This document shows, one piece after another, positions 2,968-39,511 of a stretch of DNA of 64,000 nucleotides. A program made the translations under genes and the position numbers. The notes under the pieces were generated by a model. It did no database searches. It was not told where the DNA came from and saw nothing but the letters and a program-made list of their open reading frames with translations. The first letter of the stretch is position 1; each line of letters opens with the position of its first letter. The stretch lies in assembly GCF_007860075.1 (NCBI RefSeq), contig NZ_SJPP01000006.1:1-64000 (forward strand). Direction: 5' to 3'. The stretch comes from Symmachiella macrocystis. GTDB lineage: Bacteria > Planctomycetota > Planctomycetia > Planctomycetales > Planctomycetaceae.

Positions 2968-3014
2968 CATTTCGATGAGTTCAAGAACATCTATGTGTTT
3001 GTCTGCCTATTGAA

Positions 3015-3894
3015 GGTCTATCTCATGTCATTTTCGATGTCGCTTCACATTGGTGTCAACGAAGTTGATCCGGACACGTACGGTGAAGTGCCTAGGCTCC
3101 GTAGCGCCGTGAAGGACGCGGAGGCGATGGAACAAATTGCAACAGACCTGGAGTATCAGGACACGTTTCATCTTCATAATGAAGATGCGACTGTCTCCGC
3201 AGTGCTAACGCGAATTGGTGAGATGGCTCTGCAGATTGAGCCTGGCGGCGTGGCGATGGTAACCTATGCGGGGCATGGATCGGAAGTTCCGGACGACACG
3301 GGCGACGAACAGAGCGGTCGTGATCAAACTTGGGTTTTATACGACAAGATGTTGATCGACGATCAGCTTCGCGCGATGTGGGGCAGATTTGCACCGGGTG
3401 TTCGTGTTTTCTTTGTATCGGATAGTTGCCACAGCGGAAGCATGGCACGCACATTCAAGGAAGCAATCAACAAGTTGAAGGATAACACACCACAGTTCTT
3501 GCTGGGAACTCGTGACTTCATCGGACCAGACATTCCGAAAGAACGCATCCTTCCTCCTGATGCCGCACTGCAAGCCTTCTCAAAATATGAGAGTGAAATC
3601 GTTTCGACTCAGTGGACTTGTGGGAATCGAGGGCTGGGCGTTATTGGGGCAACCGTAATTTCGCTGGCAGCGTGTCAAGATGATGAAGTTGCTGGTGACG
3701 GCGCGAATAATGGGGTCTTCACGGCCGCCCTTTTGCAGGTATGGAACAATGGGCAGTTCTCTGGAAGTAGTCAGCAATTCCTGGATGCGATTGCCAGAAA
3801 AACCCGTATGTACCAACGCCCGCGTTTCGAGGCGTTCGGTGCATCCAATCCTGGGATGATGGAACAGATACCGTTTGGGGTTGCGTTGTCTGGT
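3015..3894. repeat. 880-bp direct duplication, right copy
   Basis: Partner of 1662-2541. The downstream border is sharp: after TCTGGT the two genes share no sequence except the 78-bp block at 3906-3983, which matches 1941-2018 with one change. Confidence 0.9.
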
Positions 3895-4347
3895 GTTTCT
3901 CCAAACGACACGGGCGACGAACAGAGCGGTCGTGATGAAACTTGGGTTTTATACGACAAGATGTTGATCGACGATCAGCTTCGGGCCGCAATAGTTCGTT
4001 CTCCACGAGTCCAAAGGGCAAAAGATTTATTGGCGGCGAATGGAGTGTATCAACAAGGGTGTAGCGCTTTCATTATACATGTTCTCCAGGTTCCATGGGA
4101 AAATGCGAATGCGTTAATGGGAAATAATCCAATATCCGCTGGTACATGGCCGAATTACACGGGACTGAGCCCCGGCAATATCGTCGGGTGGAAGTCCACT
4201 TCCGGAAGCGGTCATGTTGCCATTTATATTGGCGAGGCGGATACGAAATTCATCGATGTCCGAGAGCCAGGTGCCGAATCACGGCCAAGGGCTATTGTGA
4301 ACGGTTATGGCAGAAGTCAAGAGTTATTCAAGTCGTCAAGGTTCTGA
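3025..4347 (+). CDS. Mosaic caspase-like protein with C-terminal NlpC/P60-like domain, copy 2
   Basis: The start at ATG 3025 is chosen because it corresponds exactly to the start of copy 1; an ATG-type start 10 codons earlier is also open. Residues 1-290 equal copy 1 apart from one Leu/Ile change, so the His84/Cys135 dyad is kept. At ALSG the sequence switches to a second copy of the caspase segment around DTGDEQSGRD-TWVLYDKML (78 bp, in frame). A new domain of about 115 aa follows, with QQGCSAFIIHVL and SGHVAIYIGE, which resembles the Cys and His motifs of NlpC/P60 or CHAP amidases. The result is a 440-aa hybrid with two candidate cysteine-hydrolase centres. The NlpC/P60 assignment is by motif pattern only. 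Confidence 0.75.
   Translation: MSFSMSLHIGVNEVDPDTYGEVPRLRSAVKDAEAMEQIATDLEYQDTFHLHNEDATVSAVLTRIGEMALQIEPGGVAMVTYAGHGSEVPDDTGDEQSGRDQTWVLYDKMLIDDQLRAMWGRFAPGVRVFFVSDSCHSGSMARTFKEAINKLKDNTPQFLLGTRDFIGPDIPKERILPPDAALQAFSKYESEIVSTQWTCGNRGLGVIGATVISLAACQDDEVAGDGANNGVFTAALLQVWNNGQFSGSSQQFLDAIARKTRMYQRPRFEAFGASNPGMMEQIPFGVALSGVSPNDTGDEQSGRDETWVLYDKMLIDDQLRAAIVRSPRVQRAKDLLAANGVYQQGCSAFIIHVLQVPWENANALMGNNPISAGTWPNYTGLSPGNIVGWKSTSGSGHVAIYIGEADTKFIDVREPGAESRPRAIVNGYGRSQELFKSSRF
3906..3983. repeat. 78-bp in-frame re-use of caspase domain segment
   Basis: The block repeats 1941-2018 (and therefore 3294-3371) with one base change that turns Gln into Glu. It encodes DTGDEQSGRDETWVLYDKML and the following IDDQLRA. 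It sits exactly between the caspase half and the NlpC/P60-like half of copy 2. Confidence 0.85.
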
Positions 4348-6197: not shown

Positions 6198-6265
6198 GCG
6201 AAGCAGCACAACTGTCCGTTCCATCGATCGCTTGGACGCTGAATCGCTCTGGACCGCCGTTCTCA
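6198..6265 (-). pseudogene. Fragment of phosphopantetheinyl transferase 3' end
   Basis: The minus strand reads NGGPERFSVQAIDGTDSCAA, nearly the same as HGGPERFSAYAIVGTDSCAA at the end of the intact transferase gene (7154-7217). The nucleotide match covers about 60 bp. The fragment starts right at the stop codon of the TraX-like gene, so the operon seems once to have had another copy of the transferase end here, or the segment was copied by recombination. Confidence 0.7.
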
Positions 6266-7102
6266 GGGAGCGAGTTCGGGCAGCAGCTTGACGATAATTT
6301 CGGAGCCGGCAAGCTGTATGGCGTAAATCTCCAGAGTGTGCCGGCCAATGAATCGCAGGACGTAGGCTATGGATTCTGGCGGCTGGATGCGGCTCGGGCC
6401 GCGCAGGAACAGACACAGGCTGAAGGACAAAACGCCGAGGCCGAGAATGAAGGCGGCGAAATGGATCTGAGAAAACGAGAATTCCCTTTGTTCCTGCCAG
6501 ACGTAGACCACCGAGGCGATAAAACAGGCCAGCAGGCGCATTAGGCCCACGTTCTTTATCGACGCGTGCGCGGGCGCTGCTGAGCTTTGGGCTGTGCCGT
6601 CCTCGTCGGTAGCTGATCTGCCATCGACAACCATGCGTTGGCATAAGCCGAACAGAGCCCACAGCCATCCCTCCGCGCCGTAATCGACAATCTTCGCCGC
6701 TATCGTTAGCACCGCCAAAAGTGCGGAGGCGAGGAGGACGAAGGCGGCCCAGCCGCGATGTTGCATAAAGATCCGCACATAGGGACGTGCAACGCGAATG
6801 ATTGCGAGGCTCAAGAGAATGTTCGGTGTCACCCAGGTCCAGCCTTCGTTCCAGCTCTCAAGCAGGGTAAGAATGACACCGAGCCAGATCCAGCGGACCG
6901 GGACGGTCCGGGTCTGCGCGTAGCCCAATAGGAAGAAGAACACCGGAGCCGCCAAGCGTCCGAAGACGCTCCACCAGTCAGCGTTTTCAATGAAGAAATA
7001 ACCGAAGTGGTCAACCGCGACTAGGACGATTGCGGCAGTTTTCAGCCAGTCGGTGTTGTCAACGGCGTGGGGTATTCGCGTTGAACGCGTGGCGTCGTGC
7101 AT
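6263..7102 (-). CDS. TraX-like polytopic membrane protein
   Basis: I chose ATG 7102 (MHDATRSTRIPHAVDN), 9 bases after the stop of the upstream transferase; a longer frame opens at 7159. The 279-aa protein starts with NTDWLKTAAIVLVAVDHFGYFF, the signature of the TraX family (related to acyltransferase-3 membrane proteins). About eight hydrophobic segments follow. TraX acetylates pilin in F plasmids; homologues in biosynthetic clusters may N-acylate or export products. As the last gene of the operon it may modify or move the NRPS product; this is inference. Confidence 0.7.
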   Translation of the reverse strand: MHDATRSTRIPHAVDNTDWLKTAAIVLVAVDHFGYFFIENADWWSVFGRLAAPVFFFLLGYAQTRTVPVRWIWLGVILTLLESWNEGWTWVTPNILLSLAIIRVARPYVRIFMQHRGWAAFVLLASALLAVLTIAAKIVDYGAEGWLWALFGLCQRMVVDGRSATDEDGTAQSSAAPAHASIKNVGLMRLLACFIASVVYVWQEQREFSFSQIHFAAFILGLGVLSFSLCLFLRGPSRIQPPESIAYVLRFIGRHTLEIYAIQLAGSEIIVKLLPELAP

Positions 7103-7110
7103 TTCTGGGC

Positions 7111-7851
7111 TCACTTGGGCTGAACATTCTGAGGCGTACGGATGACAAGCGCAGCGCAACTGTCCGTTCCCACGATCGCGTAGGCGCTGAATCGCTCCGG
7201 TCCGCCGTGGTCAGGGGGAGCATGGACGACATGCAGCCTTGGGGCTAGCTCGAACTCGAAGGCCTCGAGGCCGTATGGCAAACCCTCTCCGATGGACTTC
7301 AGCGCTGCTTCCTTGAGGCTCCAGAACTGATAGAAGGTCCGCAGGCACTGCTGACCGCTGACCGCCTCGACAGCCTCGGCCTCGGCGACCGAAAAGTACT
7401 GCCGAGCGAGCTCTCTTGCTTCCAGGTCCCTCGTTTGATCTTCAAGGTCGACGCCGATCGCATGCGTCGACGACCAGGCGCCGAGAAGACCGGACTGGCA
7501 GGAGGAGAAGCTGAACCAAAGATCCGGCGACTCGGAAAGGTAGGGTCTCCCATTCTCAGTCTCCTCGAAGACAATCTCCGATAAGGGCTGCGACAATCCG
7601 AGCGCGGTGGCACCGCAGAAGCGACGAAACGCACGGCGCTGTTCGAACCGGGCCTTGTCGCATTCGGCGTCAAGGCGGTCCCTTCTCTGCAGTTCGGCAT
7701 CGGACAGGACCGACGCGCAATGCCTCGACACCTCAGCGTCGCGCGAGATCGGCGCGTACAGTACGCGAGCCGCATGACGCGCAGGTGCGGGTGTCACATC
7801 GCGCGAGCCCACGGTGAAAAGCTCGCTGATCCGTTCGCTCGAGTCGCTCAT
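7111..7851 (-). CDS. Sfp-type 4'-phosphopantetheinyl transferase
   Basis: This 246-aa protein contains GVDLE at 133-137 and FWSLKEAALKSIGEG around 176-190, the magnesium- and CoA-binding motifs of Sfp-type transferases. These enzymes attach phosphopantetheine from CoA to the serine of carrier domains. Its ATG overlaps the NRPS stop codon in an ATGA arrangement, so translation is probably coupled. The obvious substrate is Ser636 of the adjacent NRPS. The length is normal for the Sfp group. Confidence 0.9.
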   Translation of the reverse strand: MSDSSERISELFTVGSRDVTPAPARHAARVLYAPISRDAEVSRHCASVLSDAELQRRDRLDAECDKARFEQRRAFRRFCGATALGLSQPLSEIVFEETENGRPYLSESPDLWFSFSSCQSGLLGAWSSTHAIGVDLEDQTRDLEARELARQYFSVAEAEAVEAVSGQQCLRTFYQFWSLKEAALKSIGEGLPYGLEAFEFELAPRLHVVHAPPDHGGPERFSAYAIVGTDSCAALVIRTPQNVQPK

Positions 7852-10800
7852 TGGATATCGTGAGCCTCATTAGTGTCACCCGGCGTTTCAAAACCGCCTG
7901 GTCGTGGCTGAGTGAGAAGGGGAGGTGAGTGTTGAACTCCACTGACGGGGTCCGTGGGGCTGCCCTCGTAAGCTGCTGTGGGCAGGTGCATCTCCTTCAG
8001 GACCATGCTCAATGGTAGGAGCGTTGTATCGGGCTCGATGACCACACCGCCCATGACCGTGGCGCCGAAGCTGACCGAACTGCCGTCCTGGATCTCTGTC
8101 CGCTTCACCTTCAGCATCATGTTCTCGAAGGTGTGGAGCTGCAGCAAGCCGTCGATGATGCAATCGTCGCCGAAGCTCACTGCGTTCCAGTCAAAAGCCT
8201 GCAGGGGATCTTCGATGATTGTCCGTCGCCCTATTCGACACCCCATCCGCCGCAGGGCGAAATTCGCGAGCACTGTCCCGGCAAGGGTTCTCATGGGCCT
8301 CCGGTACCAGGCAAAGAAGCAGTCCTGAACGAAGAAGTAACTGAAGTGTCGCAAGGACCAGAACAGAGTCGAGTGCGCGGTACCCCACTGGTTGCCGACG
8401 ATGACCCTCTTGAGCAGGGCACAGCACTCAACCAGAACAACTTCACCCAGAATCAATGCGAGGCACGCGCTCACGACCGCGTGCCCGCCCAGCCTCAGCA
8501 GAACCGTGTAAAGAATCGCGAAGACGAGCACTTCGGCGATGGGCAGCATACCAACACTGAACACGTCATGCAGGGAGACACGTGCCAGGAAGAGGGGGAA
8601 GCTCGGCAGTGCTCGAGCTTCGTTCTCCGCCTCGAAGTCCGCACTGCCGAACTTTACCGGCGGGTTTCCAGCCACCGTGATGGACTTGCCGTCTCGCGAC
8701 CGCATCTGGCGTCTGAACCGGATGTCAGTCGCCGGCGTGGAGACACCGAGGAGGAAGTTGGTCGGGAAGTTCCCGTACTCCGCGACGCAGTTGTTGCTGA
8801 AGAAGGAGTTCGCTGGCATATCGATCGGTCGGAGCGTCAGGTGTTCGGCCCCCTGGTCGAGCATATTCGTGAAGCCCCCGTGAGCCCAAAAAACTTGTGA
8901 GTCAGCCTGGGTGAGCTCCGGGACGAGGTTGAGCATCACGTCACACTCAGAGGCGCCGGAGCGCGCAAAACGCACACCAGCGAGAGTACGCAGATACTGT
9001 CCGATGATGCTCCAGGTCCACAGACGCTGGATCTGATCCATCAGCTTCACCCGGTACAAAAGGAGATGGCCCTTAAGCCCGTACGAGGGATACAGCCCCG
9101 GCGAGGCAGGCGTGTAACGAAGGAACACACAGCCCACCATTGAAACCAAGACGATCGTCACCCAGGTGGTGACGAAGGTGTAGAGGCTCATCTGCCAGAC
9201 GATCTCGTGCAGGGGTGTGATCTGGAAGTAGTCACTGTTACTAGCGATCTCACTGGCGGGAAGAAGGACGGCGGCGAACCAGGCGACCGAGGCCGTGGGC
9301 ACGACAAGAAGCAACAAGTCCAGGAAGATCTGCATCAGGATGCCGAGCGTCCCCAGGAGCCAGAACGGCAACCCGTACCGGCAGTGGTTAGCTGTGCGTT
9401 TCACCGCCGCGCAACGACCGGCGAAGTGGGCGGGGGCGCCCTCCCACATTTCGTCGGCACCCACGTCGGCAAGGATCGGCGTCAGTGGAGTTATCCAGCT
9501 GCCGCGGCCCACCGTCACATCGTTGGCGATGCCAGACCGCATGCCGATCTTGCAGCCACTCTTGAGGTGAACGGGGCCAATGTGCAGCTCCTGCCCGACC
9601 CACCTCGACATGGACAGGTACGCTCCCGTTTGGATGGAGACATCGTCCTCGATGGAGAGGAGGTCCAGCGGCCCGGAGAACACCACGGCGTGCGCGCAGT
9701 GAACGTTCTTGCCCACGGTCGCTCCCAGCCCGCGCAGCACCCATGCCATGAGCGGTGCGCTTCGGAACATCGCATTCAGCGGTCGGAGGACCCATTGTTG
9801 CAGCCGCCCGATATACCAGGTTCGCAGATGCATTCGGCTCCACTTGGGGTACACACCCGGCGCCACCCAGTTGTTGCGGATGTGACCGCCCATGCAGAGC
9901 TTGATCAGCATAACCCAGAGCAGGCCTGCGAACGGCAGCGTAAGAGCAAGCAAGTACGTCAAGACGCCGACGACGATGAACTCCTCGAGGTGAGCGGTCA
10001 CGAAAAACTCGCCGATCTCTGCGAAGGCGACGAGCCCGATGAAACCCAGGATGGGTGGGGAGTAAAGCAGCAGCAGAAACAGGATCTGCAGGGTGGTGAA
10101 GTAGCCGACCGAGAGCACCTCTGCGGATGCCTCATCGCGCTCGCTGCGGTTGCCGTTGAATCGCGCGGCGGACGTGTGGTGGGCTCCGGAGGTCTGCGGT
10201 CGCTCCCGTGAGCGGTGGTGGGCCACCTTCCTGGCCGTGTTGCAGTCGGTTAGCAGCGACAGGACGGAGACCACCCTGCCCGCCGCCCGCAAACGGTTCG
10301 CCAGTCGCGCGATGACGATCGAGTGCCCGCCATGGTCGGCGAAGGCATCATCCCATCCAAGCGCGCGGTCAAACACGTCCCTGCAGATCGCCAGCACTTC
10401 CGCGGCGCCCTGGGCCACCTCTGAATCGGCTTCGGGGGGTTGGATGTCGTCGGCCTCTTCGTCCTGCGTCCTGGTTCGGGCGCCACGAGACGTCCCCTCC
10501 GCTGCCGGCGCCTCGTTCGGCAGCAAGCGAGAGAGGTCGGGCAGGCGCTCCCGGTCGATCTTCCCGGACACGGGCTTCATGACGAACCCATCGACCAGGA
10601 AAATCCTCGTCGGGACCGACGGCGCCGGAAGCTGTGCACTCAGCCTCTTGGTGACGCGGGCGGCCCACTCCGCCGGTGCCGGAGCGACGAGTGGGCTTTC
10701 ACCTTCGGCGACCAACGGCGCGGCGACGAAGGCGACCAGCTCCTCGTTCTGGTAGTCCAGCACAGCCACTTCGATCTCCTGGAACTCCGTCTGGAGGATG

Positions 10801-12227
10801 TCCTCGACAGGCTGGGTCTCGACGCGGTGCCCCCGTACTTTGAGCTGAGCGTCGATTCGACCCAGGAAGTGCACACGCTGCGTCCGGACGTCGATTCTGC
10901 ATTTGTCTCCGGTGCGGTATAGACGCTCGAACCGAGGGTGCGTGATGAACTTCTGCGCGGTTTGCTCTGGCAAGTTGCGGTAGCCGCGCGCAACGTGAAC
11001 TCCACCAATGCAAAGCTCTCCGACCTCCCCGTGGGGCAGCGGGTCGAGCTTGCCGACTTCGAGGATGACGTAGGTGACGTTGGCCAGCGGAGGGCCGATG
11101 GTCACCGGCTCCCCCGGTCTCAAGCTCTGGCGGCTCGTGTCGGTGCTCGCCTCCGTCGGGCCATAGGTGTTGATGATCTGCCGTCGACCTCGCGTCCACG
11201 GCTCCACGAGCGCGGCGGGGAAGGCTTCCCCCGCCGGAACGACGTAGCGGCACAGCGGGTACGGGAGATCCAGCTCGGGCGACGGTGTGAGCGTGGTCAG
11301 CAGCGCTGGCGGACAGAATAGTACCGTGACCTCTGCTTCACGGAGGACGGGGACGAGATCCGGACCGGACCGGATCTGCTCCTTAGTCAGCAGGACCACG
11401 GCGCAACCCGAGACCCAAGCGCTGTACATCTCGGAGATGCTTCCGTCATATCCCAGTGACGACGTGAGCGAGGTCGCATCCATGCCCGGGTTGAGATCGA
11501 AGTAGTCCGCGTAGCTGAGGGCCAGGTTCACATAGCCCGCGTGCGGGCACTCCACTCCCTTGGGCATCCCGGTGGTTCCGCTCGTGTAGAAGATGGTCGC
11601 GAGGCGCTGCGTAGGGTCGTCTAGCCATGGTGGCGGCGCGCTGCGCGTCATCGTCTCGGGTAAAGCCAGGACATCGAGCGTCGGCAATCCACGGAAGCTG
11701 TCTTGCCCGCGCGTGAGGACGGCCACGGGCTGTGCATCCTCAAGCATGTGGGTGATCAGGGCTTCCGGCAACGTGGTGTCGAGGAACATGACCGTGCCGC
11801 CAGCCTTGAGAATGCCGACATGAGAGGCCACGATCTGCCAGTTGTCCTGCGACATGACCACGACCACGACTTGGTCTGGGCCCGTGAGGAAGGGAGACAG
11901 GGCCGCGGCCACAGCTTCGGCTCGCGCGTCGAGATCAGCAAACGTCAGCGACTCTCCGGTGTGTGGAATCTGCAAGGCCGGGTGATCCGGGAACCGCCTG
12001 GCGGAGCGGCTGAATATCTCCGTCAACCACCGCACTCCTTCCTGATGCGGAATGTTCACGAGGTGCCGGTCGCCAAAGACATCCGTCAAGCTGTAGGGGC
12101 AGGTGTCCTTCTGCACGTGTTGCGTTTTCTCGGCCACCCAAAGGTATCGCCGCCACGCCACAAACGTCAAGCCGAAGAATACTACGAACACGGCTGCCAG
12201 AATCGAACCTGCCATGGAATTTCTCAC
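7848..12227 (-). CDS. Membrane-anchored single-module NRPS resembling poly-amino-acid synthetases
   Basis: The frame opens at GTG 12227; ATG 12215 is an equally good start, and neither has a strong ribosome site. In order the 1459-aa protein has an N-terminal membrane helix (about 6-25); an adenylation domain with FYTSGTTGMPKG (213-224), NTYGPTEAS (353-361), YRTGDK (437-442) and KPVSGKIDRE (551-560); a carrier domain with DHGGHS (Ser636); then, from about 705, a long region of membrane helices alternating with left-handed beta-helix segments (LGATVGKNV, GCKIGMRSGIANDVTVG, RMGCRIGRRTIIEDP). There is no condensation or thioesterase domain. This order matches epsilon-poly-L-lysine synthetase and related enzymes that make homopolymers or isopeptides at the membrane. 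The substrate is probably diaminopropionate or its amidinated form, inferred from neighbours. Confidence 0.85.
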   Translation of the reverse strand: MRNSMAGSILAAVFVVFFGLTFVAWRRYLWVAEKTQHVQKDTCPYSLTDVFGDRHLVNIPHQEGVRWLTEIFSRSARRFPDHPALQIPHTGESLTFADLDARAEAVAAALSPFLTGPDQVVVVVMSQDNWQIVASHVGILKAGGTVMFLDTTLPEALITHMLEDAQPVAVLTRGQDSFRGLPTLDVLALPETMTRSAPPPWLDDPTQRLATIFYTSGTTGMPKGVECPHAGYVNLALSYADYFDLNPGMDATSLTSSLGYDGSISEMYSAWVSGCAVVLLTKEQIRSGPDLVPVLREAEVTVLFCPPALLTTLTPSPELDLPYPLCRYVVPAGEAFPAALVEPWTRGRRQIINTYGPTEASTDTSRQSLRPGEPVTIGPPLANVTYVILEVGKLDPLPHGEVGELCIGGVHVARGYRNLPEQTAQKFITHPRFERLYRTGDKCRIDVRTQRVHFLGRIDAQLKVRGHRVETQPVEDILQTEFQEIEVAVLDYQNEELVAFVAAPLVAEGESPLVAPAPAEWAARVTKRLSAQLPAPSVPTRIFLVDGFVMKPVSGKIDRERLPDLSRLLPNEAPAAEGTSRGARTRTQDEEADDIQPPEADSEVAQGAAEVLAICRDVFDRALGWDDAFADHGGHSIVIARLANRLRAAGRVVSVLSLLTDCNTARKVAHHRSRERPQTSGAHHTSAARFNGNRSERDEASAEVLSVGYFTTLQILFLLLLYSPPILGFIGLVAFAEIGEFFVTAHLEEFIVVGVLTYLLALTLPFAGLLWVMLIKLCMGGHIRNNWVAPGVYPKWSRMHLRTWYIGRLQQWVLRPLNAMFRSAPLMAWVLRGLGATVGKNVHCAHAVVFSGPLDLLSIEDDVSIQTGAYLSMSRWVGQELHIGPVHLKSGCKIGMRSGIANDVTVGRGSWITPLTPILADVGADEMWEGAPAHFAGRCAAVKRTANHCRYGLPFWLLGTLGILMQIFLDLLLLVVPTASVAWFAAVLLPASEIASNSDYFQITPLHEIVWQMSLYTFVTTWVTIVLVSMVGCVFLRYTPASPGLYPSYGLKGHLLLYRVKLMDQIQRLWTWSIIGQYLRTLAGVRFARSGASECDVMLNLVPELTQADSQVFWAHGGFTNMLDQGAEHLTLRPIDMPANSFFSNNCVAEYGNFPTNFLLGVSTPATDIRFRRQMRSRDGKSITVAGNPPVKFGSADFEAENEARALPSFPLFLARVSLHDVFSVGMLPIAEVLVFAILYTVLLRLGGHAVVSACLALILGEVVLVECCALLKRVIVGNQWGTAHSTLFWSLRHFSYFFVQDCFFAWYRRPMRTLAGTVLANFALRRMGCRIGRRTIIEDPLQAFDWNAVSFGDDCIIDGLLQLHTFENMMLKVKRTEIQDGSSVSFGATVMGGVVIEPDTTLLPLSMVLKEMHLPTAAYEGSPTDPVSGVQHSPPLLTQPRPGGFETPGDTNEAHDIQ

Positions 12228-12248
12228 ACAGTCGTGAAGTCAGGACGT

Positions 12249-13307
12249 TCAATCGAAGTACCGCTGGAGCGTTCCTTCCCGGCGGATGTCCAGGGTCACG
12301 CAATGGAACCCACCACCCAACATCTTTGAGTGGCGTAGCTTGAGGGGGGCGACATCGAGGCCATGTTTTTCCAGGAGCTTGATCAGAGCCTTCTGGTCTC
12401 GATCGACTGCGACTAGGTCCGGACTGACGCTGAAGAGATTCATGTCGATCCACTCGCTGCCGATGCTTTTGGACAGATAATCGGCATCGTGCTTGTTGGT
12501 GCTTTCCATGGGTGGGCTGTAAATAATGTCCCACTGCTTTAGGATCGCGGGCAGCGTATCGTCATTGACTCGGGTTGGGTTGCACAGCATCAGACCTGGA
12601 CGCAGGGCCACAAATGTTGAGTCGATGTGGCTGCCATAGTAGACATCCTCGAGGAAGTGAACCCGAAAAGTGTCTCCGAGAATCGTCTGCAGCCATTGCC
12701 CTCCCAATCGGTTCCCCGTTCCACTGACCAAATAGATCAGGTCCCGGCCGAGGCGCAGGATGTTTGCCGCATCAAAGGCTGGTTCATCGTTGCACGGCGT
12801 GGGCTTGTTCAGATCGACGTCAAAGAGCGAGTCCAGAAGCATGGGTTTGGGCGCGCTGTACCACTTTGCACCTGATTTCAGGTAGTCCACCATCATGGTG
12901 CGATAGCTGAACGCTTCCTGGGCGCGGCTGCGAATGACATTGGGTGTTTCGATGATGTGATTGCCAATGACAAGCATGACATCGCGAGGGCAATAGTTGT
13001 AGAACCCCTTGGATTCCCATTCGATCGTCGAGAATGTGGCCTCGTGTGGCCATGTCTCCGGGCGTTTGACGGTAACGCCCTCTCTTTCCAGGACTGCAAT
13101 GAATTCTCTCAGATCCTCTTCCGTCTCTTCAATGATCCACTGCGGAAAGGGTCCCTGCGGGATCTCCTCGAGAGACCGATCGGGAAACTCTGCGACCTGG
13201 GTGCTCGGATCTGCCGTAGGAAATCGCGCGCCCAGCGGATTTCCCACGATGACCTCCTTGAGCGGATCCCATTCATTGCAGCTCCAAACGATTGGGGTTG
13301 GATTCAC
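12249..13307 (-). CDS. Glycine-amidinotransferase-type enzyme (AGAT family)
   Basis: I chose GTG 13307, 5 bases after the stop of the upstream gene and behind GGGGAGAG; the frame is open further upstream but would overlap that gene by 100 bp. The 352-aa protein shows NEWDPLKEVIVG near the start, YYGSHIDSTF with the catalytic His, and GGGFHCVTLDIRR with the nucleophilic Cys336, all typical of arginine:X amidinotransferases such as GATM, StrB1 and CyrA. These move the amidino group from arginine to an amine via an amidino-cysteine. The acceptor here could be L-diaminopropionate or the finished peptide; that is inference. It is the third gene of the operon. Confidence 0.9.
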   Translation of the reverse strand: MNPTPIVWSCNEWDPLKEVIVGNPLGARFPTADPSTQVAEFPDRSLEEIPQGPFPQWIIEETEEDLREFIAVLEREGVTVKRPETWPHEATFSTIEWESKGFYNYCPRDVMLVIGNHIIETPNVIRSRAQEAFSYRTMMVDYLKSGAKWYSAPKPMLLDSLFDVDLNKPTPCNDEPAFDAANILRLGRDLIYLVSGTGNRLGGQWLQTILGDTFRVHFLEDVYYGSHIDSTFVALRPGLMLCNPTRVNDDTLPAILKQWDIIYSPPMESTNKHDADYLSKSIGSEWIDMNLFSVSPDLVAVDRDQKALIKLLEKHGLDVAPLKLRHSKMLGGGFHCVTLDIRREGTLQRYFD

Positions 13308-13311
13308 CAGC

Positions 13312-14328
13312 TTACTCTCCCCGTCCGGGTAGGAACCCACTAACACGCATGCCAACGCCCGCCGCGTCGGCGAGGTTCCGCACCAGCCGACCGACGGCGA
13401 GGTCAAGAACACCGAGACCGAAGGGGCTGAAGACCGTCACGCCTTCAGCGCCGTGCCTGGGCGGAGCTGTGCCGAGGAGGACATCGGCCAGGGTGCAGCG
13501 AATGAATGCCCGGCTGCCGGACTGCTGCTCGGCCAGATGTACAGAGGTCTCCGCGCGACAGACGTGATTGACGTCGTCCACGATGTTGTCTGCCGCCAGG
13601 ATCACCTCGGGCTTCAGATCGCGCAGGGAGACATGCAGGATCGTACTGCCCGGCTGGAACTGAATCTCGGGGCCCACGTAGGGGGCCAGCGCGGTGGTGG
13701 CAAAGGAGACCAATCGACACTCGGCGGTGATTTCCTCCAGGCGGCCGGCGAGCACGCCTTCGACTCCAGGGCACAGAGAATCGCACTCTTTTAGGAACGA
13801 CGCGGCACGGGGCGGGTCGGTGTCGAATACGAGCAGCCTCCGAGGAGGTCCCGACATTGCCATGAGGAAGCGCAGGATCTCCCGATTGATCACACCACAG
13901 CCGACCATACCGATCGATTCTGTCTCTTCCGGGTAAGCCAGGTGTCTCGCCGCCAGCGCCGCACTCGCAGCTGTCCGCCGGGCGCTAATCAGCGAACCCT
14001 CCAGCAGCACGTCCGGCCGGCCGGTATCGACGGAGTTGAGGACCATGACGGCGGAGGCCCGTTCCATTCCCTGCTCCACGTTCTCGGGGAAGGAGGCAAT
14101 CCACTTGATACCGGCGACAGGCTCGCTGCCCCCCAAGAAAGCGGGCAAAGCAATGATCCTGTCACGCGGCTTGTCCGGGAAGTGGAGAAAGTTCGACTGG
14201 GGAAGGCTGCTCTGACCAATGGCATGTGTTTCGTAGGCCAGGCGCACAGAATCGATGACCTCTCGCTCTCTGCCCTCAAGCAGCGCCTTCACGTCCTCGG
14301 CGGTGAGGACCAACAGACTGTCTGACAT
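13312..14328 (-). CDS. sbnB: SbnB-like dehydrogenase (ornithine cyclodeaminase family)
   Basis: ATG 14328 is preceded by AGGGAGA and lies 10 bases after the previous stop. The 338-aa protein has the OCD/mu-crystallin fold pattern: [36 protein letters not shown], and an NAD-binding [13 protein letters not shown]. In staphyloferrin B and zwittermicin-type pathways SbnB oxidises N-(2-amino-2-carboxyethyl)-L-glutamate to release L-2,3-diaminopropionate and 2-oxoglutarate. The pairing with an SbnA-like gene immediately upstream supports this rather than true ornithine cyclodeaminase activity. Confidence 0.85.
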
Positions 14329-14338
14329 GGTCGTCTCC

Positions 14339-15343
14339 CTAGCCACGGATCTCGCTCACGGGACCCAAGTGCCGACGACCGATCTGCAGCCCGTTCTGCG
14401 CGAGCCACGAGTCGCTGAAGATAGTGGAGGCGTAGTGCTCTCCGCGGTCCGCGCAAATGCAGACCGCCCGTTCGATGTTGTCGTGTGTCTGTAGATACCG
14501 GGCACAGGCTGCCAGGCCGGCCCCGCTCGACCCGCCGATCTTCAATCCGGTAGCGGCATCCAAGGCCCGGCAGAACGCAAACGCCTCACAATCGCCAACG
14601 TAAATAATTTCGTCGTAGAGTCCGGGGGTCACGAACTCGGATCGCCGACTGGAGCCGATGCCGGTCACCTTCCGCACGCCGAGAGATCCGCCTAGAGCCA
14701 CCGAACCTCTGGCGTCGACCGCGATAATCCGAGTGTCCGGGCTAGCGTCGCGGAAGAATCGCCCGATGCCCGCCAGCGTGCCGCCCGTGGAGACAGCGAC
14801 GAAAACGGCATCAACCCTGCCCTCCATCTGCCGGTATATCTCGGGCGCTGTTCCCGAATAGTGGGCTTCAGGGTTTGCAGCGTTAGAGTATTGGTTCGTC
14901 CACGCCAGTCCAGGATCTTCAGCCAACATTTCCCGGACGCGTGCCAGCCTGCTTAGGAGATACCCGCCAGTTTCGTCTGGCGATTCGACGATCCTTGTCT
15001 CGGCCCCCAGGGCGTGGAGCCGACGCATGTTCTCCGCAGTCATGGTGGGGTCGACCACTGCGGTGAACTGATAGCCTCGATCGCGAGCGAGCATCGCAAG
15101 GCTGATGGCCAGATTGCCTGAAGACGATTCGAGTAGGCGCCCTCCCGCACACAGCTGTCCGGTTGCCTCGAGGCTTTGAAGCAAGCCAAACGCTGTACGG
15201 TCTTTGACGGATCCCCCCGGGTTGTGACCTTCGAGCTTCAGATAGGCATTCCGACTCTTCCCGTTAATCAGCAACCGAATACGCCCAATGGGTGTGTTGC
15301 CCAGCTTTGTTTCTTTGACGACGATTGACTGTGTCAAACTCAT
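14339..15343 (-). CDS. sbnA: SbnA-like PLP enzyme (cysteine synthase family)
   Basis: The first gene of the operon starts at ATG 15343. The 334-aa protein has the PLP lysine in [10 protein letters not shown] (Lys47), the substrate loop [11 protein letters not shown] and the phosphate-binding [10 protein letters not shown]. It belongs to the O-acetylserine sulfhydrylase fold. SbnA condenses O-phospho-L-serine with L-glutamate to give the SbnB substrate. Its being followed at once by SbnB makes that reaction the best assignment. Plain cysteine synthase remains possible if considered alone. Confidence 0.85.
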
Positions 15344-15580
15344 TCATTGAAACCCTATATTTATGCCCGAAGAAAAATTTTGCGACAGGCGTGGTCGTTC
15401 TGTGACGAGTGGCCAGAATTTAGCCGCCCCCCACACCTGCTCCTCGGCGAAAAGGCCCAGACTCGACTGGCAAATGGAGCGAAGCAGAGATTGTATTGGG
15501 CAAGGGCAGCACGATCAGTGAGCCTGCACGCAGGGCAAACGACTGTTAGGAGGCAGAATGCCCTGCGTTTGTACCAGGTT
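15344..15580. promoter_or_regulatory. Presumed promoter region of the biosynthetic operon
   Basis: This 237-bp gap precedes the SbnA start (minus strand) and follows the 3' end of the next minus-strand gene. No clear -10/-35 pair or operator was recognised. It is the only non-coding space in front of the six-gene operon, so its promoter should be here. Confidence 0.4.
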
Positions 15581-16336
15581 CTATTTCGTTGTTCCCACCT
15601 TGATGGATTCCCACAGGGCGCTGTTCGGAGCAATAATGAAGTCTCGGTTCGCCTTGTCAAGCTTGGCCACTTCGGAACCTTTGTAGCCATCCCAGAAAGT
15701 CCCCCACTCCTTGAAGGTTGGGGCCTGTACCACGAAAATCAAGTCGTGCTCACCGTTGGCGTTGACGGCAACTGGGAAGTGCACGGAGGCTTGTAAGTTG
15801 GCGCAACCGTCCATTTTCCGCGCGGCTGCAAGCCACTTCTGAGCAGCCTCCACCACCTGCTCTTCGGTGGCGTCATCGTCCAATTCGCATCTCCACATCT
15901 GGGTGGCCTTCATGTCAGAGGTAGGAGCGGCCGACCCGGCTGGCAGCTTTACTTTGATGGATTCCCACAGGGCGCTGTTCGGAGCAACAATGAAATCACG
16001 GTGCGCCTTGTCGAGCTTCGCGGCTGGAGAATCCTTGTAGCCATCCCAGAAAGTCCCCCACTCCTCGAAGGTTGGGGCGCTGACTACGAAGAGCAAGTCG
16101 GTATGGGGGAGGTTGTTGACGGCAACCGGGAAATAGATGGAAGCCTCAAGGTTCTTACCGCCTTTCATCGTCTTTGCGGCCGCAAGCCACTCATGAGCAG
16201 CCTCCACCACTTGCTCCTCGGTGGCGTCATCGTCCAATTCGCATCTCCACATTTGCGTGGCCTTCCCGCCCGCAAAGGCCGGAGCGACTGCAATCAGCAT
16301 CACTGCAACGAACATCCATGGTAGGTTTCGGTTCAT
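15581..16336 (-). CDS. Secreted protein with two tandem domains
   Basis: ATG 16336 follows AAAAGGAGA at the right distance. The 251-aa protein opens with a signal peptide (MNRNLPWMFVAVMLIAVAPAFAGG). It then has two near-identical domains of about 100 aa, each running from KATQMWRCELDDDATEEQVVEAA through the conserved APTFEEWGTFWDGY to NSALWESIKV. The pattern (short alpha-beta unit, TFxEWGxFWDGY) suggests a dimeric alpha-beta barrel type fold, but no family is certain. A truncated LysR gene diverges from it, in the same arrangement as the intact LysR and the DUF1254 gene at 21 kb. Confidence 0.75.
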   Translation of the reverse strand: MNRNLPWMFVAVMLIAVAPAFAGGKATQMWRCELDDDATEEQVVEAAHEWLAAAKTMKGGKNLEASIYFPVAVNNLPHTDLLFVVSAPTFEEWGTFWDGYKDSPAAKLDKAHRDFIVAPNSALWESIKVKLPAGSAAPTSDMKATQMWRCELDDDATEEQVVEAAQKWLAAARKMDGCANLQASVHFPVAVNANGEHDLIFVVQAPTFKEWGTFWDGYKGSEVAKLDKANRDFIIAPNSALWESIKVGTTK

Positions 16337-16473
16337 AACGCGTCTCCTTTTCTGTGTGTTTGCTAAGTTTAAAACGAAAGTCGCGCGGTCCAAAACTGGT
16401 CGCGTCACTCGCTCAAATTTGCCATCATTTCTTATTTTTACTCGCATTAATATCCCAAAGCAACTCACGTACC

Positions 16474-16490
16474 CTCATGGAGTATATGAG
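16474..16490. promoter_or_regulatory. Inverted repeat CTCAT-N7-ATGAG at LysR start, copy 1
   Basis: The sequence CTCATGGAGTATATGAG overlaps the start of the truncated LysR gene. The same spaced inverted repeat (CTCATAGAATACATGAG) occurs at the start of the intact LysR gene (21195-21211). Conservation at both loci while the centre changes suggests an autoregulatory operator, or simply inheritance from a common copy. Confidence 0.5.
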
Positions 16491-16770
16491 CAATATCGAT
16501 CATTTGAATTTGGGTGGGAATACGCTGACGACATTTTTGACTGTCCTTGAAGAGACGTCTGTTTCCAGGGCAGCAGAAAGACTGGGTGTTACGCAGTCAG
16601 CGGTCAGCCATACACTCGAGAAGTTACGAGGAATATTTGACGACCCGTTGTTCGTTCGCGTAGGACTGGGAATCGAATCAACGGCCAGGGCACGCGCACT
16701 GCAAGGCTCGGTGGAATCCATGGGGGCAGGTCAGGCAGGCACGGAGGAAACCTGCTGCGTTTGGCGTTAA
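16486..16770 (+). pseudogene. Truncated LysR-family regulator, N-terminal domain only
   Basis: Residues from MSNIDHLNLGGNTLTTFLTV through ALQGSVES are about 95 percent identical to the intact regulator at 21207 and cover the winged helix-turn-helix. After SVES the sequence changes to unrelated codons and stops at 16770. The effector-binding domain is missing. It diverges from the secreted double-domain gene. A free DNA-binding domain could still act as a competitor at the shared operator, but loss of function is more likely. Confidence 0.85.
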
Positions 16771-21051: not shown

Positions 21052-21194
21052 TGGGGAGTCTCCAGTGCGTAAAACAAGAAAATTGCGACCTGACGATTTC
21101 GAACTCAAGTCGTTCATTTGTCGCGTTGCTCATCCGCGTCTTCGATGTACCCGAATATATATCCATGTTGACAACCCGAATCAACTCACTTATC

Positions 21195-21211
21195 CTCATA
21201 GAATACATGAG
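21195..21211. promoter_or_regulatory. Inverted repeat CTCAT-N7-ATGAG at LysR start, copy 2
   Basis: This site overlaps the start codon of the intact LysR gene in the divergent promoter region with the DUF1254 gene. The arms are identical to the site at 16474-16490. Confidence 0.5.
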
Positions 21212-22112
21212 CAATATCGATCATTTGAATCTGGATGGGAATACTCTGACGACGTTCTTGACCGTCCTTGAAGAGACGTCTGTTTCCAGAGCAGCAGAAA
21301 GACTGGGCGTCACACAGTCAGCGGTCAGCCACACACTCGATAAGCTGCGAGTCATATTCGACGACCCGTTGTTCATTCGCGTGGGACGAGGTATCGAATC
21401 AACGGCCAGGGCACGCGCGCTGCAAGGCTCGGTTGAATCCGTTTTGGGCGACCTCAAATCGCTTACCGACCACCGGGAATTCGACCCGCTGGTCGAGCAA
21501 ATGGAATTCACTATCGCAGCGAACGATTTTCCGATTCACTTCATCTTTCCGAATTTACTCAAGGAATTGTCTGAGGATGGCATCCATCCCCGGATACGCT
21601 TTATTCCTTCAGGGATCCCGAGCGTCAGTGTCCTGCGAGCATCACGTTACCGAATGCTCATAACCCCCACACCACCGAACGATCCGGAGTTAAAGAAGGA
21701 AAGCCTCATACGATCGAAAATGGAGATATTCTTTGATGCCTCGGTCAGAAAGCCGCCAAGAACAAGGAAGCAGTTTTCCGAAAGTCGCTACGTGGAAGTC
21801 AGATTCAGCGATACCGAAGCGTCACTGATGGCTTTGCCTGGCTTCGATGTATCGAGAATGAATCCCCCCATGATCTCCGTACCCAATTTCGGTTTGCTGG
21901 CTCCAATGATTAAAGGGACCGATCGCATTACGACGCAGATTGCTGCGATGAAAATGGGGCTGCTGAAAGAGCTTGATACGAGTCCTCTGCCATTTAAAAC
22001 AGACCCATTGGATCTCTTTCTTATCTGGCATCGTCGTGAACATGATGACCCCGCCCACCGATGGCTTAGGCAGAGAATAATCGAGACAGTCACTTCTTTG
22101 ACGGAGGGCTAA
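21207..22112 (+). CDS. LysR-family transcriptional regulator
   Basis: The start ATG 21207 is chosen by comparison with the truncated paralogue; codons upstream are open but not conserved. The 301-aa protein has an N-terminal winged HTH (LTTFLTVLEETSVSRAAERLGVTQSAVSHTLDKL) and a periplasmic-binding-protein-like effector domain from about residue 95 to the end. Length is normal. It is divergently arranged with the DUF1254 gene, 155 bp apart, and probably regulates it and itself. Confidence 0.9.
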   Translation: MSNIDHLNLDGNTLTTFLTVLEETSVSRAAERLGVTQSAVSHTLDKLRVIFDDPLFIRVGRGIESTARARALQGSVESVLGDLKSLTDHREFDPLVEQMEFTIAANDFPIHFIFPNLLKELSEDGIHPRIRFIPSGIPSVSVLRASRYRMLITPTPPNDPELKKESLIRSKMEIFFDASVRKPPRTRKQFSESRYVEVRFSDTEASLMALPGFDVSRMNPPMISVPNFGLLAPMIKGTDRITTQIAAMKMGLLKELDTSPLPFKTDPLDLFLIWHRREHDDPAHRWLRQRIIETVTSLTEG

Positions 22113-23117: not shown

Positions 23118-23273
23118 ATGGCCGCGAAGAAAACAACCCGCAAAACGACCACCGCCAAGAAGGCCAAGCTCAGTCAGATCCAGGCCGCGATCCGCAGACG
23201 GACGAGTCGGCGCGTTCACTTTCACAGTGTGCGAACCGGGAAAGCGTGCTGGCGGGTGCTGTGTTGGGCTTGA
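23118..23273 (+). pseudogene. Basic H1-like protein, N-terminal fragment
   Basis: ATG 23118 opens MAAKKTTRKTTTAKKAKLSQIQAA, the basic tail seen in the H1-like genes at 44846 and 41945 of this window. After about 25 residues the frame runs into the terminase sequence out of phase and stops at 23273. A deletion joined the two genes. Confidence 0.65.
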
Positions 23274-24598
23274 GCGGACCGGGACAGAAAATCTCCGGCA
23301 TCATGCCCTGCACGGTCATCCGGCCCGGCGACATGGCGGACAATATACTGGACCGCAACAAACACCCCGAGTGGAATGGTGAACGAACCAAGATGGTGTA
23401 TTCCTTCCCCACCGACGAAAAACTGTGGGCCGAGTATGCGCGCATACGGGCTGAAGGGATGCGGGGGGGTGACGGCGGCTGGGCGGCGACCGAGTTCTAT
23501 CGCGAACACCGCGAGGCGATGGATTCCGGCGCACGCGTCGCCTGGGAACAGCGCTACAACCATGACGAGTTGTCCGCGTTGCAGCATGCGATGAACCTCA
23601 AACTGCGGGATGAAGCCGCCTTCTTCGCTGAGTACCAGAACGAACCCTTATTGGAAGAGACCGTCGGCGATGACTTACTGACCGCCGATCAAATCGCCGC
23701 GAAGACCAATGGGATGCCGCGTCGTGAACTTCCCGTGGCGTGTAACCATCTGACGCTGTTCATCGATGTGCAGCAAAACCTGCTGTACTACCTCGTGGCC
23801 GCTTGGGAGGATGATTTCACGGGCTACGTCGTGGGCTACGGCAGCTATCCGGATCAAAAGCGACCGTACTTCACGTTGCGGGATGCGCGACAGACGTTGG
23901 CGACGGTCGCCCAGGGAATTGGCCTAGAAGGTTCGATCTATGCCGGACTGGATGCGCTCACACGCGACCTGCTGGCGCGGGAATGGCACCGGGACGACGG
24001 GGCGGCGATGCGGATCGGTCGTTGCCTGATCGACGCCAACTGGGGCCATTCCACCGATGTCGTGTATCAATTCTGTCGGCAAAGCGTGCACAGCGGCCTG
24101 TTGATTCCCAGCCATGGGCGATTTGTCGGCGCGTCGAGCGTTCCGTTTGCCGAATACAAACGCAAACCAGGTGATCGCGTCGGTCACAATTGGCGAATTC
24201 CGAATGTGCGCGGCAAACGCGCCGTCCGACATGTCGTCTACGACACGAATTATTGGAAGTCCTTCGTTCAGGCGCGGCTGGCCGTAGCGCTCGGTGATCG
24301 TGGCTGTTTGTCGTTGTACGGCGATGAAGCGGACCGGCATCGATTGTTGGCCGAACATCTTACCGCTGAATATCGCATTAAGACGCAGGGCCGGGGACGC
24401 ACCGTCGACGAATGGAAACACCGGCCAGACAAGTTCGACAATCACTGGCTGGATTGCCTGGTGGGTTGCGCCGTGGCTGCGTCGATGCAGGGAACGTCGC
24501 TGCTAACGACGGAGAAACCGGCACGGAAACAGCCCGCGCTCAAGTTGTCGGAACTGCGGCGATTGAAACGAGATCAACAAGGAAGAATGCAGTGGTGA
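23240..24598 (+). pseudogene. Phage terminase large subunit, C-terminal nuclease part
   Basis: About 450 residues are open and similar to the C-terminal half of phage terminase large subunits of the GpA-like type: GPGQKISGIMPCTVIRPGDMADNILDR, TKMVYSFPTDEKLWAEYA, NHLTLFIDVQQNLLYYLV (nuclease Asp), and a conserved DNHWLDCLVGCAVAAS end. The N-terminal ATPase with its Walker motifs is missing and the front is fused out of frame to a basic-protein fragment. It cannot package DNA by itself. Confidence 0.75.
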
Positions 24599-38284: not shown

Positions 38285-39511
38285 ATGAGAATCTCGCAAC
38301 GAAAATTGACGGAGATCAAACCGTACCAGCAGAACCCACGCGTCAATGATGGCGCGGTGGATGCTGTGGCGGCATCGCTTCGCGAATATGGGTTTCGCCA
38401 GCCGGTCGTGGTGGATGAGGAAGGGATCATTATCTGTGGGCACACCCGTTGGAAGGCGGCGCAGAAATTGGGACTCGAAAAAGTGCCCGTTCACGTCGCT
38501 AAGGACTTGTCGCCCGAGCAGATCAGAGGCTATCGGCTTGCCGATAACCAGACGGCCACATTGGCTGAATGGGACGCGGATCTCCTTTCGCTAGAATTGG
38601 CCGACCTGCAAGCGATGGGGTTCGACCTTGAACTGACCGGTTTCAGCGAGGACGAGTTGGCCAAATGGTCTGGTGGTGAGGTGAAAGAAGGCCTCACCGA
38701 TCCGGATGATGTACCGGAGGTGCCGGACGAGCCAATTACAAAACCCGGCGACCTGTGGCTTTTGGGCAGCCACAGACTTTTTTGCGGTGACTCCACATCA
38801 ATCGAAGATACTTTGCGCGTGATGGACGGTGAGAAAGCCGCGCTTGTCGCGACTGATCCTCCGTATCTCGTTGATTACACCGGTGATCGGCCCAATGAGT
38901 CCGGGAAAGATTGGTCAGATACCTACCGGGAGATCGACATCTCCGATGCGGATGCTTTCTTTACGCAGCTATTCACTTGCGTTCTCGGAGTGGTCGCACC
39001 CAAGGCGGCGATCTACTGTTGGCACGCGCACAAACGGTGCGGTGTGATTCAACGGACCTGGGATCAACTAGGCATTCTAGACAACCAGCAAATTATTTGG
39101 GTTAAGCCGACGCCGGTCTTTGGCCGCGTCTATTGGCACTTCCGGCACGAGCCCTGCATGCTGGGTTGGGTCCGTGGCAGCCAGCCGGATCACGACGGCC
39201 GGCACGAGGTCGATTCAGTCTGGAATGTCGACTGGGAAGGTAAGGCCCGCGTTGTGGGAAATAAACACCCGACCCAGAAACCGGTCGAGCTTTTCGCACG
39301 CCCGATGCGGAAGCACACACGCGCCGGCGATGTCTGTTTCGAGCCGTTCAGTGGCTCCGGTTCACAAATATTGGCAGCGGAACAACTGGGCCGCCGCTGT
39401 TTCGCCATGGAGATCGCACCGACATTTGTGGATGTTGCCGTCGAGCGCTGGGAGCAATTTACGGGCCAGAAGGCGGAGCGAATTCCTGCCACCAAGGAGG
39501 TGAAGGCGTGA
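38285..39511 (+). CDS. ParB-domain DNA methyltransferase, phage type
   Basis: The 408-aa protein starts with a ParB N-terminal domain (LTEIKPYQQNPRVNDGAVDAVAASLREYGFRQPVVVDEEGIIICGHTRW). An adenine/cytosine-N4 methyltransferase follows with the catalytic DPPY (ATDPPYLVDYTGD) and SAM-binding FEPFSGSGSQILAAEQLGRRCFAMEI near the end, i.e. the beta class order. Such fusions are common in prophages, where they modify phage DNA. ATG 38285 is 37 bp after the previous stop; its own stop overlaps the next start (GTGA). Confidence 0.92.
   Translation: MRISQRKLTEIKPYQQNPRVNDGAVDAVAASLREYGFRQPVVVDEEGIIICGHTRWKAAQKLGLEKVPVHVAKDLSPEQIRGYRLADNQTATLAEWDADLLSLELADLQAMGFDLELTGFSEDELAKWSGGEVKEGLTDPDDVPEVPDEPITKPGDLWLLGSHRLFCGDSTSIEDTLRVMDGEKAALVATDPPYLVDYTGDRPNESGKDWSDTYREIDISDADAFFTQLFTCVLGVVAPKAAIYCWHAHKRCGVIQRTWDQLGILDNQQIIWVKPTPVFGRVYWHFRHEPCMLGWVRGSQPDHDGRHEVDSVWNVDWEGKARVVGNKHPTQKPVELFARPMRKHTRAGDVCFEPFSGSGSQILAAEQLGRRCFAMEIAPTFVDVAVERWEQFTGQKAERIPATKEVKA

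Follow-up and report, generated by a model that had tools for sequence, protein, structure and literature searches.

What would a planctomycete make with an operon in which genes for the synthesis of L-2,3-diaminopropionate (Dap) stand next to an amidinotransferase (AMT) gene and a membrane nonribosomal peptide synthetase (NRPS) gene? This question is raised by a minus-strand gene set of Symmachiella macrocystis located in the first 64,000 nucleotides of contig NZ_SJPP01000006.1 (the window). Searches with only the AMT lead, in dozens of loci, to the same set of neighboring genes, indicating that the operon is real, widespread, and not a chance assembly. We tentatively propose, at somewhat less than an even chance, that its enzymes would make 2-amino-3-guanidinopropionate, which a divergent Pls-type synthetase would activate and condense, with acylation following outside. 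In this proposal, the product, the acceptor of the AMT, and polymerization are the parts that we infer. The genes of the operon are as follows.

15581..16336, minus strand: secreted acidic protein (16k) with two tandem alpha/beta-barrel domains (signal peptide recognized by eye and hydropathy; tblastn homologues; AlphaFold2 model)
14339..15343, minus strand: SbnA-type pyridoxal phosphate enzyme, predicted first step to Dap (TIGR03945, 343 bits)
13312..14346, minus strand: SbnB-type dehydrogenase, predicted second step to Dap (TIGR03944, 407 bits)
12249..13307, minus strand: StrB1-like AMT (PDB matches, active-site positions, and start codon; start of the listed open reading frame [ORF], 13412)
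7848..12227, minus strand: membrane NRPS with adenylation (A), carrier (T), and Pls/PosA-type terminal domains (AMP-binding, PP-binding, TIGR02353)
7111..7851, minus strand: Sfp/HetI-type 4'-phosphopantetheinyl transferase (PF01648, E = 2.1e-14; HetI model, 74 bits, below the cut-off of 370)
6263..7102, minus strand: TraX-type transmembrane acyltransferase of the TmAT superfamily (PF05857, 37.8 bits, cut-off 25; listed ORF start, 7159)

A preliminary description of this DNA had reported six minus-strand ORFs, from SbnA to TraX, and profile and PDB searches bear out both their positions and their families. The genes do overlap or lie close together, as described, with two starts to be corrected. 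The AMT probably starts at GTG 13307, 4 nt past the SbnB stop, the listed start at 13412 probably being too far upstream, and the conserved sequence of TraX begins near ATG 7102 rather than at 7159. With these starts, neighboring genes overlap by 4 to 8 nt or are separated by gaps of 4 to 21 nt. The unit is probably larger than the six genes first delimited, since the 16k gene lies on the same strand 237 nt upstream of SbnA and has homologues that accompany the operon in other genomes. The G+C content is 60.7% in positions 6263 to 16336 versus 54.5% in the rest of the window. A scan for promoters and terminators gave no excess over chance, with 3 and 11 sites, respectively, versus 2.7 and 10.0 in shuffled sequences.

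Scanning 84,980 species, each represented by one genome, for the AMT revealed at least 74 loci. Sixty-six loci encode an AMT of at least 59% identity, and 61 of these have at least 400 bp downstream; the NRPS gene directly follows the AMT gene in 51 of the 61. It follows past an inserted S41 peptidase gene in locus L069, the NRPS end and the phosphopantetheinyl transferase and TraX genes lie just upstream of the AMT in L024, and the NRPS start is found at the contig end, under the score threshold, in L038 and L043. NRPS matches above 100 bits were obtained for 53 loci among L007 to L070, in at least six phyla (Pseudomonadota, 39; Acidobacteriota, 5; Thermodesulfobacteriota, 2; Planctomycetota, 2; Verrucomicrobiota, 1; Cyanobacteriota, 1; and three without rank, from NaphS2, HTCC2148, and HTCC2080). 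Most of the genomes carrying the operon are metagenome-assembled genomes (MAGs), whose bins are fallible; those of Zhengella mangrovi X9-2-2, HTCC2080, HTCC2148, and NaphS2 are not titled MAGs. The NRPS and AMT closest to those of the window belong to a Verrucomicrobiota MAG (81% and 90% identity, respectively, over tree columns), and the other planctomycete in the NRPS and AMT trees (L032) is not the nearest relative of the window. Among 99 related genomes, AMT matches were found in four, including that of S. macrocystis itself, the matching segments elsewhere being 25 to 43% identical, and the 98 other genomes contained no close AMT. Horizontal spread of the operon across phyla is the best reading of this distribution. 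Spread by plasmids was considered and rejected: the best AMT match in PLSDB, 62% identical, comes from a plasmid of Robbsia on which the stretch examined includes no NRPS, and PLSDB, in which three records were undercounted, contained no NRPS match of at least 60% identity.

The association of the genes was further examined in 140 genomes of the HTCC2080 family. Both AMT and NRPS gave strong matches in 29 genomes, the AMT alone in 1, the NRPS alone in 1, and neither in 109. The thresholds for strong matches were of our choosing (approximately 300 bits for the NRPS, 150 bits for 16k, and 260 bits for SbnB), and one AMT match of 36% identity (G238) was left out of the count. At an E value of 0.001, three of the per-protein searches matched 37, 129, and 58 of the 140 genomes, the extra matches being mostly short or weak. 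The 140 genomes are mutually related, and Fisher values overstate their independence.

The NRPS comprises an N-terminal hydrophobic helix, an A domain (residues ~72 to 565), a T domain (Ser636), which the phosphopantetheinyl transferase would prime, and a terminal domain (residues ~700 to 1459). Profile searches matched AMP-binding and PP-binding, followed by positions 37 to 694 of the 695 positions of TIGR02353 (E = 4e-45; 154 bits, cut-off 423). The beta-helix and transmembrane layout of the terminal domain rest on Pfam Hexapep, which scored under its cut-off, on TIGR02353, and on hydropathy, which displays ten peaks, nine of them past the T domain. The poly-lysine-like order noticed in the preliminary description thus holds, for a single A-T module is followed by a membrane domain homologous to those of poly-lysine and poly-ornithine synthetases. 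The cationic homo-polyamino-acid (CHPA) synthetases (the epsilon-poly-lysine synthetase Pls, PosA, and PDAP synthetase) likewise combine A and T domains with a multi-transmembrane terminal domain of near-full homology to TIGR02353, and they have the Q-x-H-x-F-E region and the T-domain serine in common with the operon NRPS. As controls, we used seven relatives from related genomes that match TIGR02353, four of them above the cut-off of this family and three below it. Residues Q1363, H1365, and E1368 of the terminal domain are invariant in the seven controls and conserved in at least 95% of the operon NRPS family, and Ser636 is common to both. BLAST identity between the NRPS and the controls is 25 to 30%, and the stretches around the controls contained no AMT, TraX, or DUF418 homologues. 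A Pfam search of the genome, which is rated 96.6% complete, found no Condensation domain, so that no candidate for the condensing or release step other than the Pls/PosA-type terminal domain was seen. Pfam found neither a thioesterase nor a reductase release domain in the NRPS.

In order to read the specificity of the A domain, pocket columns were fixed from the A4-A5 motifs according to the GrsA positions, and codes were extracted from NRPS ORFs of more than 1,300 residues (n = 43). The window code is DGSFVATTDK, and all 43 full-length homologues display DGSF(V/I)ATTDK (30 with V and 13 with I). This code is invariant even though NRPS identity drops to 41% among eleven representatives, which argues for a single dedicated substrate. 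The codes of the seven controls were DAESIGTVIK (three), DGESVSVVNK, DSECHGDVVK (two), and DSESHGDVVK, all with Glu at position 3, where Ser is found in 43 of 43 operon NRPSs. The column mapping is supported by one control code that differs at a single position from the Methylomarinum code of PMC10522769. According to that paper, CHPA synthetases have conserved Asp and Glu residues at positions 1 and 3, respectively, position 2 is occupied by ever smaller residues (Phe for Dap and 2,4-diaminobutyrate [Dab], Met for Orn, and Ala for Lys), and Thr at position 7 and Ser at position 9 (Ser313 of PosA) touch the amine of the side chain. In the operon pocket, Asp1 is present and positions 2, 3, 7, and 9 are Gly, Ser, Thr, and Asp. 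Read in this way, the negative charge has moved in the predicted pocket, and the space that Phe fills in the poly-Dap enzyme is open. The operon NRPS, which would work like a CHPA synthetase, is set beside that family and not inside it, since Glu at position 3 is missing. A plain poly-Dap synthetase, an enzyme to which the preliminary description had likened the NRPS, disagrees with this code, as neither Phe at position 2 nor Glu at position 3 is present. Arginine codes combine Thr or Asp at position 9 with Glu and Asp at positions 3 and 4, respectively (PMC12283262). The operon pocket would fit a short guanidino side chain, which it does not prove. A pocket for a neutral residue, which had been named as an observation that would undo the preliminary proposal, is neither shown nor excluded, since no characterized twin of DGSF(V/I)ATTDK was found. 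An acidic Asp occupies the position at which PosA touches the side-chain amine.

The AMT had been described as an AGAT-type enzyme, and this assignment was confirmed with a StrB1-type best match in the PDB (1bwd, E = 8.5e-109) and with matches to SxtG, AGAT, and HsvA; searches of Pfam and NCBIfam at an E value of 0.001 gave no match. Alignment with 1bwd, 6u1r, 2jdx, and 1jdx showed that the active-site residues Asp, Asp, His, Asp, Arg, and Cys are kept. These residues (D144, D214, H262, D264, R281, and C371 in the numbering of the listed ORF) are conserved in 54 of 54 rows of the AMT family and form the active site of the AGAT/StrB1 enzymes. The tree of AMTs separates those of the operon from a Streptomyces StrB1-like enzyme, the placement of which is made unsure by its long branch. 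Relatives 62 to 65% identical to the AMT, in Robbsia and Streptomyces hygroscopicus, adjoin genes for an ATP-grasp ligase, an aldehyde dehydrogenase, and a short-chain dehydrogenase/reductase (SDR), with no NRPS recognized beside them, which suggests that this enzyme type serves more than one pathway. The ligase is PGM1-related by annotation in Robbsia and by eye in S. hygroscopicus. As a separate observation, the AMT, ATP-grasp ligase, aldehyde dehydrogenase, and SDR set is found around positions 14938 to 16041 of L136 (Robbsia andropogonis plasmid p3) and 9917 to 11041 of L062 (S. hygroscopicus), possibly forming a distinct guanidino-peptide pathway. The window itself encodes a second, distant amidinotransferase-like protein (positions 53798 to 54925, plus strand; 26% identical to the AMT; Pfam ADI, E = 1.8e-8), the N terminus of which looks by eye like a twin-arginine translocation signal (RREFLK), so that the protein is possibly exported.

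The Dap genes were likewise correctly recognized at the outset. SbnB of the window exceeds the cut-off of TIGR03944 (407 versus 326.9 bits), and SbnA is just under that of TIGR03945 (343 versus 349.95 bits), which is still its best family. The same families came out best in ten of ten relatives tested, over the cut-off in eight for SbnB (the other two scored 311 and 324 bits) and in four for SbnA. The window and ten other loci fall into four SbnA/SbnB groups, between which SbnA is 29 to 35% and SbnB 27 to 49% identical; the AMTs of these loci are 61 to 83% and their NRPSs 41 to 71% identical (L030 has no SbnA entry in this table of eleven loci). We read these values as suggesting that SbnA/SbnB pairs were separately recruited beside the AMT-NRPS pair, faster change of SbnA being the alternative. 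We also considered that the SbnA/SbnB-like pairs of Luminiphilus type might be ectoine or hydroxyaspartate enzymes, and rejected this because SbnA and SbnB were the best families in L044, L056, L061, and L070.

TraX had been listed as a member of the gene set. It is present and is no odd neighbor, since it is fused to the NRPS as the C-terminal part of the ORF in four loci (L011, L028, L034, and L069) and is replaced by DUF418 elsewhere. Eleven loci have TraX and 29 have DUF418, with no locus having both. The window (TraX) and its sister locus L007 (DUF418) differ in this respect, and at least four changes between the two are required on a quick NRPS tree, in which six rows with neither protein were left uncounted. 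Besides its PF05857 score, TraX displays the DxxK motif of the first transmembrane helix that is expected for its branch; DWLK and His51 are found in 11 of 11 TraX proteins, and the motif of this helix in 22 of 22 DUF418 proteins examined (those of more than 350 residues, out of 30). The operon proteins thus keep the DxxK/DxxR motif of the TmAT superfamily, which comprises AT3, HGSNAT, DUF418, OpgC, and, as a borderline member, TraX, and in which, through the AT3 members, acyl-CoA gains access to an acceptor located outside the cytosol (PMC12423673). The part of that paper available describes no NRPS-linked member.

Homologues of 16k were found by tblastn in 39 of 80 loci and are mostly single-domain proteins, that of the window consisting of two copies of one domain (internal duplication). 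The net charge was negative in 35 of 35 homologous ORFs, with a median of −11 over the last 105 residues, as expected for a protein that works with a cationic product, though acidity is not unusual among secreted proteins. The AlphaFold2 model of domain 1 (pLDDT 92) predicts a ferredoxin-like alpha/beta-barrel of the dimeric type. Strong 16k matches were obtained in 29 of the 140 HTCC2080-family genomes, all of them AMT positive. Side by side with these results, an S41-type peptidase gene was noted in L017, L020, L021, L022, L023, L028, L030, L031, L034, and L069 (Pfam-checked in L023), which are alphaproteobacterial and acidobacterial loci in which no 16k was found; the S41 match of L012, judged by eye to be a CtpA-like gene, is not counted here. 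A gene for a DUF4344 putative metallopeptidase is located in L016 (10365 to 11222; Pfam-checked), L015 (15329 to 16381), and L017 (1960 to 2967).

Together, these genes suggest the following route. SbnA and SbnB would form Dap, as expected from their families, and the AMT, with arginine as the donor, would amidinate the side-chain amine of Dap, yielding L-2-amino-3-guanidinopropionate and ornithine. The A domain would adenylate this guanidino acid and load it onto its own primed T domain, a sequence of events for which the domain order is observed and the substrate is predicted, and the Pls/PosA-type terminal domain may condense or release the loaded amino acid. Linkage through the alpha-amine, giving a short oligo-alpha-guanidinoalanine rather than an isopeptide of the poly-lysine type, would be expected because the guanidine takes up the side-chain amine. 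The TmAT acyltransferase (TraX here, DUF418 elsewhere) may then acylate the product on the outer side, and the acidic 16k protein may bind or further process it. The guanidinylated oligomer of the preliminary description is thus plausible, though not established. We consider doubtful, as a fuller version of this proposal, a natural poly-arginine mimic, namely poly-alpha-(2-amino-3-guanidinopropionic acid), that would be made by the membrane synthetase, acylated by the TmAT enzyme, shared across phyla, and kept by marine bacteria of the Luminiphilus type.

Several results weigh against the proposed guanidinopropionate route. The closest solved relative of the AMT is an inosamine-phosphate enzyme, and the AMT sequence does not identify the acceptor. 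The pocket matches no known guanidine code, as Glu3 and Asp4 of the arginine codes are absent, and the scores of the NRPS for TIGR02353 and of SbnA for TIGR03945 fall short of the curated cut-offs. Six loci (L020, L031, L033, L036, L060, and L062) show no NRPS in the DNA available; two of them carry other operon genes, the contig of L031 ending within the gene set and TraX and S41 genes adjoining the AMT in L020. Of 52 NRPS-bearing loci, only 26 contain both SbnA and SbnB, as do 13 of the 22 that have long flanks. Among 18 genomes picked for having no SbnB beside the AMT, 15 of which are NRPS bearing, none has a TIGR03944 match over the cut-off: 12 have only weaker matches (152 bits at best) and 6 have none at an E value of 0.001. 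The latter are Halieaceae MAGs, five of them titled Luminiphilus, and a search with the SbnB of the window agreed for all six; L059 contains only an SbnB fragment. Similarly, among the HTCC2080-family genomes that carry the operon, 13 of 31 lack an SbnB match above 260 bits. Genomes without SbnB may obtain Dap from elsewhere, be incomplete bins, or use a different AMT acceptor. Weaker 16k-like matches occur in 8 more genomes, mostly operon negative. Finally, hhalign detected no significant match between TraX and DUF418 (E = 0.16), and their kinship rests on PMC12423673.

The missing SbnB genes speak for another reading. Either the substrate of the NRPS would be a different basic amino acid, namely arginine or a guanidino acid not yet known, or the AMT would act on something other than Dap and SbnA/SbnB would be optional. 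A Bdellovibrionales CHPA homologue is modestly active on L-Arg (PMC10522769), Asp at position 9 is found in arginine codes (PMC12283262), and the 62 to 65% identical AMT relatives stand beside PGM1-related ATP-grasp ligase genes and no recognized NRPS. We nonetheless regard such a substrate as quite unlikely, given that four distant SbnA/SbnB groups stand beside the AMT-NRPS pair, that SbnB above 260 bits is found in 18 of 31 operon-positive HTCC2080-family genomes versus 1 of 109 others, and that the pocket lacks Glu3 and Asp4. At the opposite end, the AMT would be an inosamine-type enzyme acting on an aminocyclitol and located beside the NRPS by chance. StrB1 is indeed the best solved match, but adjacency in 51 of 61 loci, the separate position of the operon AMTs in the tree (the place of the StrB1-like enzyme being unsure), and the lack of an aminocyclitol gene among the recurring neighbor groups that were annotated, a partial set, leave this reading hardly any credence.

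Two further readings retain Dap as the precursor and differ in the product. If the NRPS made poly- or oligo-Dap, the AMT would guanidinylate the free amines of the finished oligomer, and, to our knowledge, characterized StrB1-like enzymes act on small molecules, which counts against such an acceptor. The adjacent Dap genes and the existence of a Dap-specific, Pls-type PDAP synthetase (PMC4668381) favor this order of events, which we hold improbable in view of Gly and Ser in 43 of 43 operon codes where PDAP synthetase has Phe at position 2 and CHPA synthetases have Glu at position 3 (PMC10522769). We also judge it unlikely that the product is no polymer at all. A guanidinoalanyl thioester could cyclize to an iminotetrahydropyrimidinone, or be joined to one amine, before acylation by the TmAT enzyme. 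The TAN-1057-type dihydropyrimidinones are a precedent for such a ring. The single module, the invariant pocket, and the acyltransferase partner would suit a small capped product no less than an oligomer, and the predicted fold of 16k resembles that of small-molecule cyclases, a likeness that shows no function. Against a small product, the terminal domain keeps the residues invariant in its polymer-type relatives, and the NRPS has no thioesterase or reductase domain for release according to Pfam.

The AMT shares its family and active-site residues with StrB1, AGAT, SxtG, and HsvA and differs from them in its genomic partner, a Pls-type NRPS, often with SbnA/SbnB. Microcystin is built by a multi-module assembly line and its amidinotransferase, McyK, accepts lysine, both unlike the operon. 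McyK, of Fischerella, is an inosamine-type amidinotransferase making homoarginine for this NRPS pathway, as cited in PMC12283262. AmtA of the phaseolotoxin pathway also makes homoarginine, a nonprotein guanidino amino acid, for another type of assembly (PMC4887976). The closest parallel for the precursor is the PDAP pathway of Streptomyces albulus PD-1, in which cysteine-synthase-like and ornithine-cyclodeaminase-like enzymes make Dap for a Pls-type NRPS (PMC4668381). That pathway differs from the operon in the pocket residues of its synthetase (PMC10522769), and the word "amidinotransferase" does not occur in PMC4668381, whereas the operon includes an AMT. The claim that no such pathway had been described stands as far as the titles and the beginnings of abstracts of the open-licence literature go, which tied no gene set of this kind to a product and described no guanidino homo-oligomer system; it has to be reworded in that the operon is a cross-phylum one and not a planctomycete pathway. 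The known cationic homopolymers of this type are few in number and have antimicrobial activity (PMC10522769). If our proposal is true, a pocket code, precursor genes, and an acyltransferase partner of its own would extend this chemistry to guanidines. The release step of Pls-type terminal domains, still open in PMC4668381, would gain a test case, with the acyltransferase being fused to the synthetase in some loci. The carriers whose records are not titled MAGs (HTCC2080, HTCC2148, and Z. mangrovi X9-2-2) make the product testable.

The surroundings of the operon include, upstream of 16k and divergent from it, the following feature.

16447..16719, plus strand: truncated 5' part of a LysR-type regulator gene, 88% identical to positions 21168 to 21440

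This 273-nt direct repeat corresponds to the 5' part of the gene, with HTH_1 in the intact copy, and flanks a sulfatase gene and a DUF1254/DUF1214 gene, the copy on the operon side being the truncated one. The latter is possibly a former regulator of the operon. On the other side of the operon, positions 1672 to 2967 and 2995 to 4347 (plus strand) contain nearly identical tandem genes for caspase-domain proteins (Peptidase_C14), the second with a different C terminus. The contig, of 72,112 bases, carries two different phage large-terminase genes, of the gpA and TerL types, at 23246 to 24598 and 48707 to 50128 (both plus strand), and a ParB/methylase gene at 38285 to 39511, which are possibly prophage remnants. 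A broken insertion sequence-type transposase was also recognized by eye on this contig.

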